Shown piece by piece: positions 41,535 to 46,341 of a stretch of 64,000 nucleotides of DNA (its first letter is position 1; every line of letters starts with the position of its first letter). The notes below the pieces were generated by a model. That model was given only the letters and a program-made list of their open reading frames with translations. It searched no databases and was not told where the DNA came from. Made by a program: the position numbers and the translations under genes. Source of the stretch: Chryseobacterium sp. Leaf180 (GTDB lineage Bacteria > Bacteroidota > Bacteroidia > Flavobacteriales > Weeksellaceae); NCBI RefSeq assembly GCF_001424585.1, contig NZ_LMPJ01000001.1:653054-717053 (forward strand), in the 5' to 3' direction.

Positions 41535-42773
41535 TTAAAATTTGCCGATGTCTTCTCTATAAAAGCTGTAATCGAAATGCACGTGCGATGCATCTTCGTA
41601 TACTTTCTTGCGCGCATCGTCGAAGGTTGCGCCTGTGGCCACAATATTCAATACACGACCGCCGTTTGAGACAATTTTATCTCCTTTTTTAGTGGCACCG
41701 GCATACAAAAGCTGGCTGTCTTTTACTCTTTCTTCGCCTGTGATTTCAAAGCCAAGCTCAATATTTCTCGGGTAGCCGCCAGAGCACATTACCAGACACA
41801 CTGCTTTTTCATCTCTGAATTTAAGATTAATCTCTTTATTGCTCATGCAGTCATTGATGACGTCGAGAAGATTATTTTCCATTAAAGCCATCAAAACCTG
41901 AGTTTCAGGATCTCCGAAACGCATGTTGTATTCTAAAAGATAGGTTCCGTTTTTAGTGATCATCAAACCAAAGAAAATGATTCCTTTAAAGCCAAAACCT
42001 TCCGCCTTCAAACCTGTAACAGTTGGCTCAAGAATGTTTTTTTCGAAATCTGCAAAATGCTCAGCAGTAAATTCCGGGCTTGGTGCCACAGAACCCATTC
42101 CGCCAGTGTTCGGACCTTTATCACCGTTTCCGGCTTTTTTGTAATCTTTTACCGGAATACACGGAAACAGTTTTTCTCCGTTCGAAAACGCGATAATCGA
42201 CGCCTCAAAGCCTTGAAGATATTCTTCGATCACCAAACGGATTCCGGCATCACCGTACAGTCTGCGGATCATAAAATCGTGAATCGTCGCTTCTGCTTCT
42301 TCTACTGTATCACAAATCACTACACCTTTTCCACCTGCCAAACCGCTGGCTTTAATTACTAAAGGATATTCGTGATCCTGAACGTATGCTTTTGCTTCGT
42401 TGTATGAATCAAAAACCATTGCTTTAGCCGTTTTGATGTCATACTTCTGCATGAATTTTTTTGAGAATGCTTTACTTCCTTCCAGGCTCGCCACTTTTTT
42501 GGTAGGACCAAACACTTTAAGGTCGTGTTTTTTAAATTCATCTTTAAGGCCTGCAACCAAAGGTGCTTCCGGGCCTACAATGGTGAGATCTACTTTTTCT
42601 CTGATGGCAAAATCTCTCAGCTCGTGGATTTCAGAAAGATTTACATTCTGCCCGATTTTCTCTGTCGATGCATTACCGTTGGCAAAAAACATCTTTGTGA
42701 TTCTGGCATCTTTCTGAAGTTTCGCAGCAAGTGCAGATTCTCTACCACCTTCACCAATGATTAATATTCTCAT
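41535..42773 (-). CDS. purD: Phosphoribosylamine-glycine ligase
   Basis: A 412-residue ATP-grasp enzyme of the second step of purine synthesis, joining glycine to phosphoribosylamine. The N-terminal dinucleotide-like motif G-E-G-G-R-E-S-A-L is present, as are the ATP-grasp segment K-A-S-G-L-A-G-G-K-G-V and the metal-binding E-Y-N-M-R-F-G-D-P-E-T-Q. It is the last gene before the terminator at 41510. The gap to purH is 86 bp. Confidence 0.96.
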   Translation of the reverse strand: MRILIIGEGGRESALAAKLQKDARITKMFFANGNASTEKIGQNVNLSEIHELRDFAIREKVDLTIVGPEAPLVAGLKDEFKKHDLKVFGPTKKVASLEGSKAFSKKFMQKYDIKTAKAMVFDSYNEAKAYVQDHEYPLVIKASGLAGGKGVVICDTVEEAEATIHDFMIRRLYGDAGIRLVIEEYLQGFEASIIAFSNGEKLFPCIPVKDYKKAGNGDKGPNTGGMGSVAPSPEFTAEHFADFEKNILEPTVTGLKAEGFGFKGIIFFGLMITKNGTYLLEYNMRFGDPETQVLMALMENNLLDVINDCMSNKEINLKFRDEKAVCLVMCSGGYPRNIELGFEITGEERVKDSQLLYAGATKKGDKIVSNGGRVLNIVATGATFDDARKKVYEDASHVHFDYSFYREDIGKF

Positions 42774-42859: not shown

Positions 42860-44377
42860 TTAATGGAAAAAATGACGCACGCCCGTAAACATCATCGGAA
42901 GATGGTGCTCGTTGGCTGCATCAATACTTTCCTGATCTTTTACGCTTCCGCCAGGCTGAATAATCGCTGTAATACCTTCCTGAGCGCAGAAATCAACTAC
43001 GTCTCTGAATGGAAAAAATGCATCAGAAGCCAAAACTAAATCTCCGTCAAATTTTCCTTTAGCTCTCTCGATCGCCTGTTGCGTTGCCCAGATTCTGTTA
43101 ACCTGCCCGCCGCCAATACCAAATGCCTGAATGCCGTTTGAAACCACAATTGCATTTGATTTTACATATTTTACGACTCTCTGAGAGAACAATAAAGCCC
43201 TTTTCTGCTGTTCAGTCGGCTGCGTTTCAGTCACCACTTTAATGTCGTCTGAGAAAACACTGTCGTTATCCTGAACTAAAATTCCACCGTCTACTTTCAC
43301 CCAGGTTTGCTTATCTGAAACGGGATTGACGATTTTTATAATTCTTAGATTCTTTTTCTTTCTTAAAATTTCCAGTGCTTCCTCGTCAAAATCCGGAGCC
43401 ATTACAATCTCAAGGAAAGTCTTGTTCAATTCTTCGGCCGTCGCTGCATCAATTTTATAATTCATCGCGACAATTCCGCCAAAAATAGAAACCGGATCGC
43501 ACTCAAAAGTTTTCTGATACGTTTCTAAAGCTGAAGTTCCGATGGCTACACCGCAAGGTGTAGAATGTTTTACGGCGCAACAGGCCATTTCTTCTTTAAA
43601 TTCTGTTACCACTTTCCAGCAAAGATCCATATCCCGAAGATTGTTGAAAGAAAGTTCTTTGCCGCCGAGCTGTTCAAAATCTTTCATCGCACCGTTTTCG
43701 AAAGTCGAAGCGTAATAAGCTGCGGTTTGATGAGGGTTTTCGCCATATCTCAAGTCTGCTACTTTTTTGTAAGAAGCACTTAAATAGGTTGGATATTCTT
43801 CATCTAAAAGCATTCTCGAAATTGCCGCATCGTATGCTGACGTCAGATTGAATACTTTTCCGGCAAGTTTTTTCCGCGTTTCTATCGAAGTATCACCAAC
43901 ATTTTCCATTTCAGACTGCACTTTTGCGTAATCTTCAACATCGGTGATGACTGTTACGGAATCGAAATTTTTTGCCGCTGAGCGAAGCATTGAAGGTCCG
44001 CCAATATCGATAAATTCCACTTTTTCGTGAAGCGGAATATCTTTGTTTACATTCTCAAAGAAAGGGTAAAGATTCACAATCACCATGTCGATCAGACCAA
44101 TTCCGTGTTCCTTAACCGTTTTCATGTGTTCTTCATTGGCACGAACAGCAAGTAATCCTCCATGAACCTTCGGGTGAAGGGTTTTCACTCTTCCGTCAAG
44201 CATTTCCGGGAAGTCGGTCACCTCATCAATCTGAATCGGATTTAATCCTGCATCTTTTAAATGCTTAAACGTTCCGCCTGTGGAAATTAATTCGTAGTCT
44301 TTTGCTTCCAGAAATTTTGCAAAATCAATCAATCCGCTTTTGTCAGAAACACTGATCAACACTCTCTTTTTACTCAT
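42860..44377 (-). CDS. purH: Bifunctional AICAR transformylase / IMP cyclohydrolase
   Basis: A 505-residue enzyme for the last two steps to IMP. The N-terminal cyclohydrolase (MGS-like) domain begins with V-S-D-K-S-G-L and contains G-G-T. The C-terminal transformylase has the K-H-S-T-P-C-G motif with its catalytic Lys-His, and F-P-F-R-D and G-G-G-Q near the end. The length is typical. A GC-rich inverted repeat (44420-44424 with 44436-44440) lies in the 82-bp gap to purN. Confidence 0.96.
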
Positions 44378-44459: not shown

Positions 44460-45023
44460 TTATTTGTGAAGCACTTTGTTGATCGCTTCCGGGAAAATTT
44501 CATATTCCACCTGATGTACTTTCTCCGCAACTGTTTCGGCGGTGTCATTTTCAGTTATTTTAAAAGATTTCTGGAGAATAATTTCGCCTTCGTCAATTCC
44601 TGAAGTCACATAATGAACCGTTGCGCCGCTTTCTTTTTCGCCGGCGGCAATCACCGCTTCGTGCACATGATGTCCCCACATTCCTTTTCCGCCAAATTTC
44701 GGCAATAAAGCAGGATGAATATTAATGATTTTATCCTGCCATTTTTCGCAGAATTCTGGTTTCAGGATAGATAAGAAGCCGGCAAGAATAATGAGATCAG
44801 TATTGTCATGAATGTTCTCTGCAAGCTCTTCGCTGAAATCTTTCCCACGTGGAATCATGATGTTTTTGATCTGATGATTTTTCGCTCTCTCTAGACCAAA
44901 ACATTCTCTGTCGGCAACCACCAGAGAAATATTTGCATCGCGAATTTCTCCGCTGGCAACAGTATCGATGATTCTCTGAAAATTTGTCCCGGAACCCGAA
45001 ACTAAAATGACTAAATTTTTCAT
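44460..45023 (-). CDS. purN: Phosphoribosylglycinamide formyltransferase
   Basis: A 187-residue enzyme that transfers a formyl group from 10-formyltetrahydrofolate to GAR. Characteristic segments are S-G-S-G-T-N-F-Q near residue 9, N-I-H-P-A-L-L-P (catalytic N and H) and H-x-V-x-x-x-I-D-E-G. It follows purM by 78 bp. That gap contains part of a degenerate repeat. Confidence 0.95.
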   Translation of the reverse strand: MKNLVILVSGSGTNFQRIIDTVASGEIRDANISLVVADRECFGLERAKNHQIKNIMIPRGKDFSEELAENIHDNTDLIILAGFLSILKPEFCEKWQDKIINIHPALLPKFGGKGMWGHHVHEAVIAAGEKESGATVHYVTSGIDEGEIILQKSFKITENDTAETVAEKVHQVEYEIFPEAINKVLHK

Positions 45024-45101: not shown

Positions 45102-46094
45102 TTAAAATTTAAGGTCAATTTTTTCGTCTCCTGCAGTAATTTCACCGATTTCATAAGCGTCATCCAAAAGATGTAAAACCTTTTCGGCGTGCTGCGCATC
45201 TACTACAACGATCATCCCAACGCCCATATTGAAGGTTCCGAACATTTCTTCGCGGGCAATATTTCCACGTTTTTCAAGCTCAAGCATTACGCTCGGAATC
45301 TGGATTTTAGAAGCATCAATGGAAGCACATAGTCCGTCACCGATAATTCTTGGAATATTTTCGTACAAACCGCCACCCGTAATGTGCGCAATACCTGCCA
45401 CCTCAACTTCTTCAATAACTTTGTGAATGTCTCTGTAATACAATCTTGTAGGAACCAAAAGTGTCTCATACAAAGGTTTTCCTTCAAACTCTTCTTCGAA
45501 ATTAGGGAAGATTTTTCTTACCAATGAGAATCCGTTTGAGTGGAATCCTGAACTTGGCAATGCAATAATTTTATCTCCGGTTTTGATTTTTGTACCGTCT
45601 ATGATCTGATCTTTTTCAACGATTCCTACGCAAAAACCTGCCACATCATAATCTCCAGGCTGATACATTCCCGGCATTTCGGCCGTTTCACCCCCGATCA
45701 AAGCGCAGTTGTTGTCTTTACAGGCTTTTACCATTCCCAAAACAATCTCTGCAGCAATCTCAGAATCAAGTTTTCCGCAAGCTAAATAATCAAGGAAAAA
45801 CAAAGGCTTCGCACCGTGGCAAAGAATATCGTTGGCACACATTGCAAAACAGTCGACGCCGATAGAATCATATCTTTTCGAGTCTAAAGCGACTTTCAGC
45901 TTCGTTCCCACGCCGTCGGTTCCGGAAACCAAAACCGGGTTTTTGTAACCGCCGATTTCGTAAAATGCACCGAAACTTCCCAAATGATTCAAAACATTAG
46001 CATTGTGCGTTTCGCCAACTGCTTTCTTTATTTTGTCTACCGTTTTGTAGCCTTCTTCCTTGTCTACGCCTGCCGATTTGTATGTGTTACTCAT
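45102..46094 (-). CDS. purM: Phosphoribosylformylglycinamidine cyclo-ligase (AIR synthetase)
   Basis: A 330-residue PurM/SelD-fold ATPase that makes the imidazole ring. Matching motifs are Y-K-S-A-G-V-D near the start, S-G-T-D-G-V-G-T-K (58-66), G-G-E-T-A-E-M-P and H-I-T-G-G-G-L-Y-E-N-I-P-R. It is the first gene of the leftward purine cluster. No good TAnnTTTG box is found between it and the terminator at 46189-46215, so it may depend on read-through from the promoter at 46311-46341. Confidence 0.96.
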   Translation of the reverse strand: MSNTYKSAGVDKEEGYKTVDKIKKAVGETHNANVLNHLGSFGAFYEIGGYKNPVLVSGTDGVGTKLKVALDSKRYDSIGVDCFAMCANDILCHGAKPLFFLDYLACGKLDSEIAAEIVLGMVKACKDNNCALIGGETAEMPGMYQPGDYDVAGFCVGIVEKDQIIDGTKIKTGDKIIALPSSGFHSNGFSLVRKIFPNFEEEFEGKPLYETLLVPTRLYYRDIHKVIEEVEVAGIAHITGGGLYENIPRIIGDGLCASIDASKIQIPSVMLELEKRGNIAREEMFGTFNMGVGMIVVVDAQHAEKVLHLLDDAYEIGEITAGDEKIDLKF

Positions 46095-46139: not shown

Positions 46140-46188
46140 TTTTATCTTTTAAAATTAACTTTTGGTTTGACTGAAAGAAAATAAAAAA

Positions 46189-46215
46189 GCCGACAATCTT
46201 TAACAATTATCGGCT
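46189..46215 (-). terminator. Intrinsic terminator upstream of purM (possible attenuator)
   Basis: On the minus strand GCCGATAAT pairs with ATTGTCGGC (9 bp with one T-G pair, better paired on this strand than on the other) and is followed by TTTTTTATTTT. It ends the short unit that begins at the promoter 46311-46341, about 95 bp before the purM ATG. Confidence 0.8.
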
Positions 46216-46221
46216 GGTATT

Positions 46222-46296
46222 TTATCTGAAAATTTCAGAGCCCACAGTTTTTCCGTTTGCTGAAAAACATTCTTTGAAAGCGGACTCAATTTTCAT
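46222..46296 (-). CDS. 24-codon small ORF or structured leader RNA upstream of the purine operon
   Basis: ATG at 46296 to TAA at 46222 encodes 24 residues: M-K-I-E-S-A-F-K-E-C, then F-S-A-N-G-K-T-V-G-S, then E-I-F-R. Codons are normal for the window. The start is 14 bases after a consensus -7 box and the stop is 7 bases before a terminator, so it is a complete short transcription unit. The same bases can fold on the minus strand. GAGTCC (46282-46287) pairs with GGGCTC (46238-46243), enclosing TTTTTC (46262-46267) paired with GAAAAA (46248-46253). It may be a small protein, a leader peptide or a riboswitch-like RNA. No known purine riboswitch sequence was recognised. Confidence 0.45.
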   Translation of the reverse strand: MKIESAFKECFSANGKTVGSEIFR

Positions 46297-46310
46297 CTAT
46301 TTTCTTTTTG

Positions 46311-46341
46311 CAAAGATATTAATTTAAAGTTAAATCTCAAA
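46311..46341 (-). promoter_or_regulatory. Strong consensus promoter of the purine leader
   Basis: On the minus strand TTTG (46338-46341) and TATCTTTG (46311-46318) are 19 bp apart, matching both Bacteroidota promoter elements. The expected start is near 46304. It is one of the two best promoter matches I found in the window. Confidence 0.75.

Follow-up and report, generated by a model that had tools for sequence, protein, structure and literature searches.

A short open reading frame that ends at an intrinsic terminator upstream of purM in Chryseobacterium and related genera, and its possible role in attenuation

The pyrL open reading frame (ORF), which belongs to pyrBI of Escherichia coli, runs past its terminator hairpin. 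In the arrest leaders of the tnaC and erm types, the stop codon or stall site is placed so that the stalled ribosome controls what follows. To our knowledge, little is known about the control of purine synthesis in Bacteroidota, and we know of hardly any study of ribosome-polymerase coupling in this phylum. Clues for leader peptide attenuation have been described upstream of amino-acid operons in Flavobacterium psychrophilum (PMC9723704), so leader-peptide attenuation is thought to exist in the phylum; the main text of that paper contains neither "purine" nor "purM". Another related group is the uORF motifs, such as uORFC-6-1 before hflX, in which a conserved RNA structure overlaps a short ORF (PMC8632094). 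Neither "purM" nor "Bacteroidetes" occurs in the main text of the latter paper. A literature search of open-licence papers found no report of the purM leader that we describe here.

The window, i.e. the whole analysed stretch of 64,000 nt from Chryseobacterium sp. Leaf180, carries four purine genes behind a short leader unit (Table 1). The first-pass annotation had proposed a promoter of the form TTTG-N19-TATCTTTG, a 24-codon ORF and a terminator on the minus strand, and all three were found at the places it gave. We named the segment 46311..46341 (minus strand) a promoter by what we take to be the Bacteroidota-type consensus, and its transcription start is predicted at about 46306-46303 on the same strand. 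The stop codon of the leader ORF lies 6 nt 5′ of the hairpin. The hairpin arm GCCGATAAT (46214-46206) holds a further TAA in frame with the ORF, which looks like a back-up stop. The RNA from 46308 to 46178 folds better than its shuffled versions (z = -4.1), of which 1 in 200 was equally good. The purM gene starts somewhat less than 90 nt downstream of the T tail of the terminator. In agreement with the first-pass annotation, no good promoter was found between the terminator and purM in the window: on that strand there is neither a TANNTTTG box nor a sigma-70-like match. Behind purD there is a terminator-like hairpin (41529-41510), with guaA beyond it. Inverted near-copies of one sequence were seen by eye on both sides of purM, GATCTGAAATCTCGCATC before the gene (46150-46110) and GATGCGAGATT after it (45100-45040). 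Related stretches occur in the gap before purM in several members of the genus.

Table 1. Window positions of the leader unit and the purine genes that follow it.
Feature	Position	Strand	Description	Basis
Promoter, Bacteroidota type	46341-46338 and 46318-46311	minus	TTTG, 19 nt, TATCTTTG	sequence
Leader ORF	46222..46296	minus	24 codons, MKIESAFKECFSANGKTVGSEIFR and stop; ATG 46296, TAA 46224-46222	
Long helix P1, inside ORF	46227..46295	minus	46295-46280 with 46245-46227	RNA folding
Inner hairpin P2	46247..46268	minus	46268-46262 with 46253-46247	RNA folding
Intrinsic terminator	46188..46215	minus	GCCGA...GTCGGC, 11 pairs, T tail	sequence, terminator scan
purM	45102..46094	minus	first gene after leader	NCBIfam TIGR00878, 412.6 bits (cut-off 236.35)
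purN	44460..45023	minus		TIGR00639, 177.6 bits (cut-off 150.1)
purH	42860..44377	minus		NF002049 and TIGR00355, above cut-off
purD	41535..42773	minus		TIGR00877, above cut-off

No second copy of the leader was found in the genome, where the best other match had an E value of 0.018. The GCCGA terminator pattern has one further occurrence, directly after the end of a gene. We also surveyed the other purine loci of the genome, for which purF, purE and purL were identified by family and the adjoining purC and purB were named by eye. A simple terminator scan revealed no hairpin between the start of any of these loci and the end, or the terminator, of the preceding gene. As these three loci lack such a terminator, the leader is not a regulon-wide device.

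Within the genus, the leader is nearly universal. The leader DNA (query 46360-46090) matched 147 of 148 Chryseobacterium genomes, including all 145 of good quality, and among the matches listed the span from promoter to terminator was covered in nearly every case. The -7 box was present in the genus loci inspected. Among all box-bearing leaders, 113 of 158 have a TTG 18-21 nt 5′ of the box. Nearly all members of the genus have a leader ORF of 24 codons; in L041 it has 26. Neighbouring genes were sorted for 96 genus loci, 85 of them unique, and in every one purM followed the leader on the same strand. On the other side of the leader, the genes include an FMN-reductase-like gene (named by eye) in 92 of the 96 loci and a pirin-like gene in 90. 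In the window, pirin is directly upstream of the leader and there is no reductase at that place. This difference in the upstream gene between the window and its relatives implies that the leader is associated with purM rather than with the preceding gene.

Beyond the genus, a family-wide search with the leader RNA gave matches in 99 of 197 genomes, of which 50 belong to Chryseobacterium. Many of the matches in other genera covered the 3′ part with the terminator, while others looked like chance. Twenty of these 49 matches were fetched, picked for covering the 3′ part, and in all 20 loci (six genera) the leader preceded purM and had a short ORF whose end was at the hairpin or within it. We then read the upstream regions of purM in one genome for each of 27 genera, and in 60 more loci. 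Leaders were present in 152 of 175 purM loci and were merged to 116 unique ones for counting ORFs. Among the 60 additional loci, 47 fit the terminator pattern, and the script found the ORF in 45 of them; in the other two, L189 (its 5′ end is cut) and L235, it was visible by eye only. Of the 13 loci that did not match the pattern, four (L188, L191, L196 and L197) have, by eye, both ORF and terminator. In L215 and L225 the stretch inspected shows just a terminator, L220 has an RNA match from the family search, and L237-L242 have no leader.

In total, the leader is present in 17 of the 30 family genera having purM, most genera being represented by a single genome or a small number of them. With genera labelled by number, the leader-bearing ones are g1, g3, g5, g7, g9, g11, g12, g13, g16, g20, g22, g23, g24, g26, g27, g30 and g32. 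No leader was found within the few hundred nucleotides read before purM in g2, g4, g8, g10, g15, g17, g18, g19, g21, g25, g28, g29 and g33. A -7 box is found at a distance of 33-61 nt from purM, on its 5′ side, in 5 of 12 leaderless representatives. The sequence 5′ of purM looks, by eye, like the end of purF in three leaderless loci (L175, L176 and L181). In the comparison across relatives by which the first-pass annotation was to be refuted, diverged genera retain the open frame together with its start and stop; the helices are kept moderately. Stems like that of the window terminator are also present in other genera.

In 115 of the 116 unique leaders, a script found a short ORF of at least 18 codons, with an ATG, GTG or TTG start 10-27 nt after the -7 box, whose stop lies no more than 8 nt inside the hairpin's GCCGA and no more than 14 nt ahead of it. 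The sole miss (L005) was a parsing slip, as the ORF is present in the sequence of the locus. All 18 representatives of the 17 genera (two from g23) have an ORF at the terminator, compared with 6-23% of dinucleotide shuffles; the representatives are related, so the product of these frequencies is not a probability. Among several lineages the length of the ORF varies by 6, 9 or 15 nt, and in most leaders the stop is 5-7 nt from GCCGA. Three loci (L117, L122 and L223) have lost the first stop, and their frame ends within the hairpin arm, at a TAA that corresponds to the back-up stop and is the only one. The start codon may be ATG, GTG or TTG and the stop codon TAA, TAG or TGA, which is what one would expect of a start and a stop in use.

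The peptide drifts from MKIQTTFKECFSEKGKTVGSEILR in Chryseobacterium to MKIQQVHFEKYPNSCKENYISTSELVN in g9, VKLHLLHSPKEIFQDFGNVIDAEK in g26 and VKIIKQFKEKHQSSRTIGKDKSVCPLNLR in g23, and NCBIfam has no family for it. As far as these sequences tell, conservation concerns an open frame whose end is fixed at the terminator, more than a peptide. This bears on the possibility of an arrest peptide, in which the nascent chain would bind a small molecule, such as a purine or a precursor, stall the ribosome at the stop codon and thereby block the terminator. The stop codon does sit at the hairpin, and the C-terminal residues are alike within genera (e.g. SEILR, TSELVN, DAEK). But they differ among genera. 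An earlier coding test was also in favour of the peptide, since only 4 of 300 and 0 of 300 sets of permuted columns were as good as the observed frame. That test counted stop codons, and it is therefore outranked by a stricter one without them. In the latter, 35 of 500 permutations did as well as the observed codons in Chryseobacterium, a borderline signal of codon-level selection, and there was no signal in the g26-like set (215 of 500) or in g9 (353 of 500). We regard an arrest peptide as unlikely.

With moderate confidence, we lean towards the leader being a translation-coupled attenuator of purM, in which a ribosome at the stop codon would permit read-through. The first-pass annotation had left the choice among an attenuator, a riboswitch and a small protein gene. 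The attenuator with read-through into purM is the part that stood, and its suggestion that translation of the short ORF could be a control input is plausible. The riboswitch and the independent gene were not supported. In the proposed attenuator, RNA polymerase would have to read through the terminator to reach purM, and read-through would supply the purM message. If the leader ORF is translated, a ribosome at the stop codon, which we presume to reach over the lower arm of the hairpin, would cover the 5′ arm, so that the terminator would be blocked and purM, purN, purH and purD would be transcribed. The position of the ribosome would be the switch. The helices within the ORF might slow the polymerase or the ribosome so that both meet.

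Low purine nucleotides are a likely but unproven signal. When they are scarce, the polymerase would slow down, the ribosome would catch up, and expression of purM would rise. Direct evidence for purine sensing is weak: the purine content of the leader is hardly higher than that of purM (0.596 compared with 0.563), and it is 0.73 in the last 12 nt before the hairpin. We suggest tentatively, and at less than even confidence, that the translating ribosome is itself the antiterminator and senses purine nucleotides through its race with the polymerase. If so, purine control would work without a repressor protein, a riboswitch or an antiterminator hairpin.

A classical amino-acid attenuator does require such a hairpin: a ribosome stalled in the first half of the ORF would free the 3′ strand of P1 for pairing with the hairpin arm. 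In leaders folded up to the hairpin, the arm was unpaired (P < 0.5) in 25 of 26. When the first part of the ORF was masked, 12 of 26 leaders could pair the arm upstream with P > 0.5 for at least one length of the mask. The highest values, 0.68-0.84 with 45 nt free, were those of seven leaders from Chryseobacterium and g32, and the arm pairing was equalled by no more than 5% of shuffles in 5 of 31 leaders. Over all 31 leaders, however, upstream pairing did not exceed that of shuffles (mean z = 0.17), and P was 0.38-0.48 in three leaders in which GAC replaces GGC. The peptides, inspected by eye, also lack a run of any single codon that could serve for control. A generally conserved antiterminator was thus not found over the leaders folded, and we judge an amino-acid attenuator to be very unlikely. 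A candidate is seen mainly in some leaders of Chryseobacterium and g32, which may have a lineage-specific antiterminator.

The RNA structure itself could also point to a metabolite riboswitch or a protein-binding RNA, with the terminator controlled independently of translation. Both helices of the first-pass annotation are present in the fold. But the register it gave for the long helix (46282-46287 with 46238-46243) paired in only 70.8% of cells among 53 unique Chryseobacterium ORFs; its first pair is C-C in 52 of the 53, and compensatory changes are absent. In their consensus register, P1 and P2 paired in 93.5% of cells of the same ORFs (letter shuffles: mean 92.6, highest 93.4) and in 89.2% in the g26-like set (mean 84.2, highest 87.5), i.e. 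above all 500 shuffles in both sets. Double changes were seen in 2 of 18 pairs in Chryseobacterium and in 5 of 16 in the g26-like set. In the latter set, all 30 sequences form the outer three pairs of P2, and 27 of the 30 form the inner two. Some folding seems to go beyond what the peptide demands: compared with synonymous-codon shuffles, the mean z of the folding energy was -1.19 over 54 ORFs, with P < 0.05 in 15, including the five from g9, both from g32 and two from Chryseobacterium. Against this, the leader RNA has no Rfam match at the gathering score and none near a cut-off, and the internal loop is, by eye, not conserved between genera. A riboswitch or a protein-binding RNA would also leave the conservation of an in-frame start and stop unexplained, and we give this explanation little credence. 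The weak Rfam matches, SpF39 (31.1 bits, cut-off 60) and the trpB motif (28.2 bits, cut-off 59), were far under their cut-offs and were rejected. We also rejected the leader as a 6S RNA, because the 6S-Flavo model matches elsewhere. That match, at G000:C1:738251-738354 (locus L039, outside the window), scored 49.7 bits against a cut-off of 85 (E = 8.7e-7) and is possibly the 6S RNA of this genome.

In 42 of 171 unique leaders, the gap between the T tail and the start of purM is no longer than 60 nt, and the shortest gap is 23 nt. A loose -7-like box lies in the gap in 38 of the 171. In the genus, TANNTTTG was found there in 11 of 84 loci (L072 left out). In g9 leaders the motif after the terminator reads TAAGTTTG, and in L146 a box lies 70 nt before purM. 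Judging from such boxes, some relatives may have a second promoter for purM, and the dependence on read-through may thus differ between species. A motif GTTTGAARTAAA, absent from the window, occurs in 41 of the 171 unique leaders, over several genera, and in 36 of these its distance downstream of the T tail is 21-24 nt; an example is the gap of L109, located from 2040 to 1857 on the minus strand. The g9 leaders frequently have it within TAAGTTTG, a sequence that fits a -7 box. That the unit is instead an independent small RNA or small-protein gene, or the end of the upstream gene, with purM using its own promoter, is highly improbable: the unit does have its own promoter and terminator, the loose boxes could be read in this way, and two Chryseobacterium genomes (L026 and L061) have a gap more than 500 nt longer than usual, with a TANNTTTG box and, at least in L026, an extra ORF, but the leader precedes purM in every locus examined across the 17 genera, at distances down to the minimum given above, and its upstream gene varies.

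The translation-coupled attenuator that we favour resembles pyrBI of E. coli in having a short leader ORF at an intrinsic terminator before genes of nucleotide synthesis. It differs from pyrBI in preceding purine and not pyrimidine genes, in an unrelated lineage, and in showing no strong tract of the limiting nucleotide. Its ORF, unlike that of pyrL, ends just before or inside the hairpin. Compared with the leaders of the tnaC and erm types, the purM leader peptide has little conservation at the codon level. The attenuators suggested for F. psychrophilum come from the same phylum but concern amino-acid operons, as far as they are described (PMC9723704), whereas the purM leader lacks control codons. 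It shares with the uORF motifs a conserved RNA structure over a short ORF, although the motifs seen in that work belong to other phyla and other genes (PMC8632094). The purM leader ORF, kept over 17 genera despite the drift of its amino acids, offers a specific and cheap test of ribosome-polymerase coupling. If our reading is true, control of the pyrBI type would extend from pyrimidine to purine genes.
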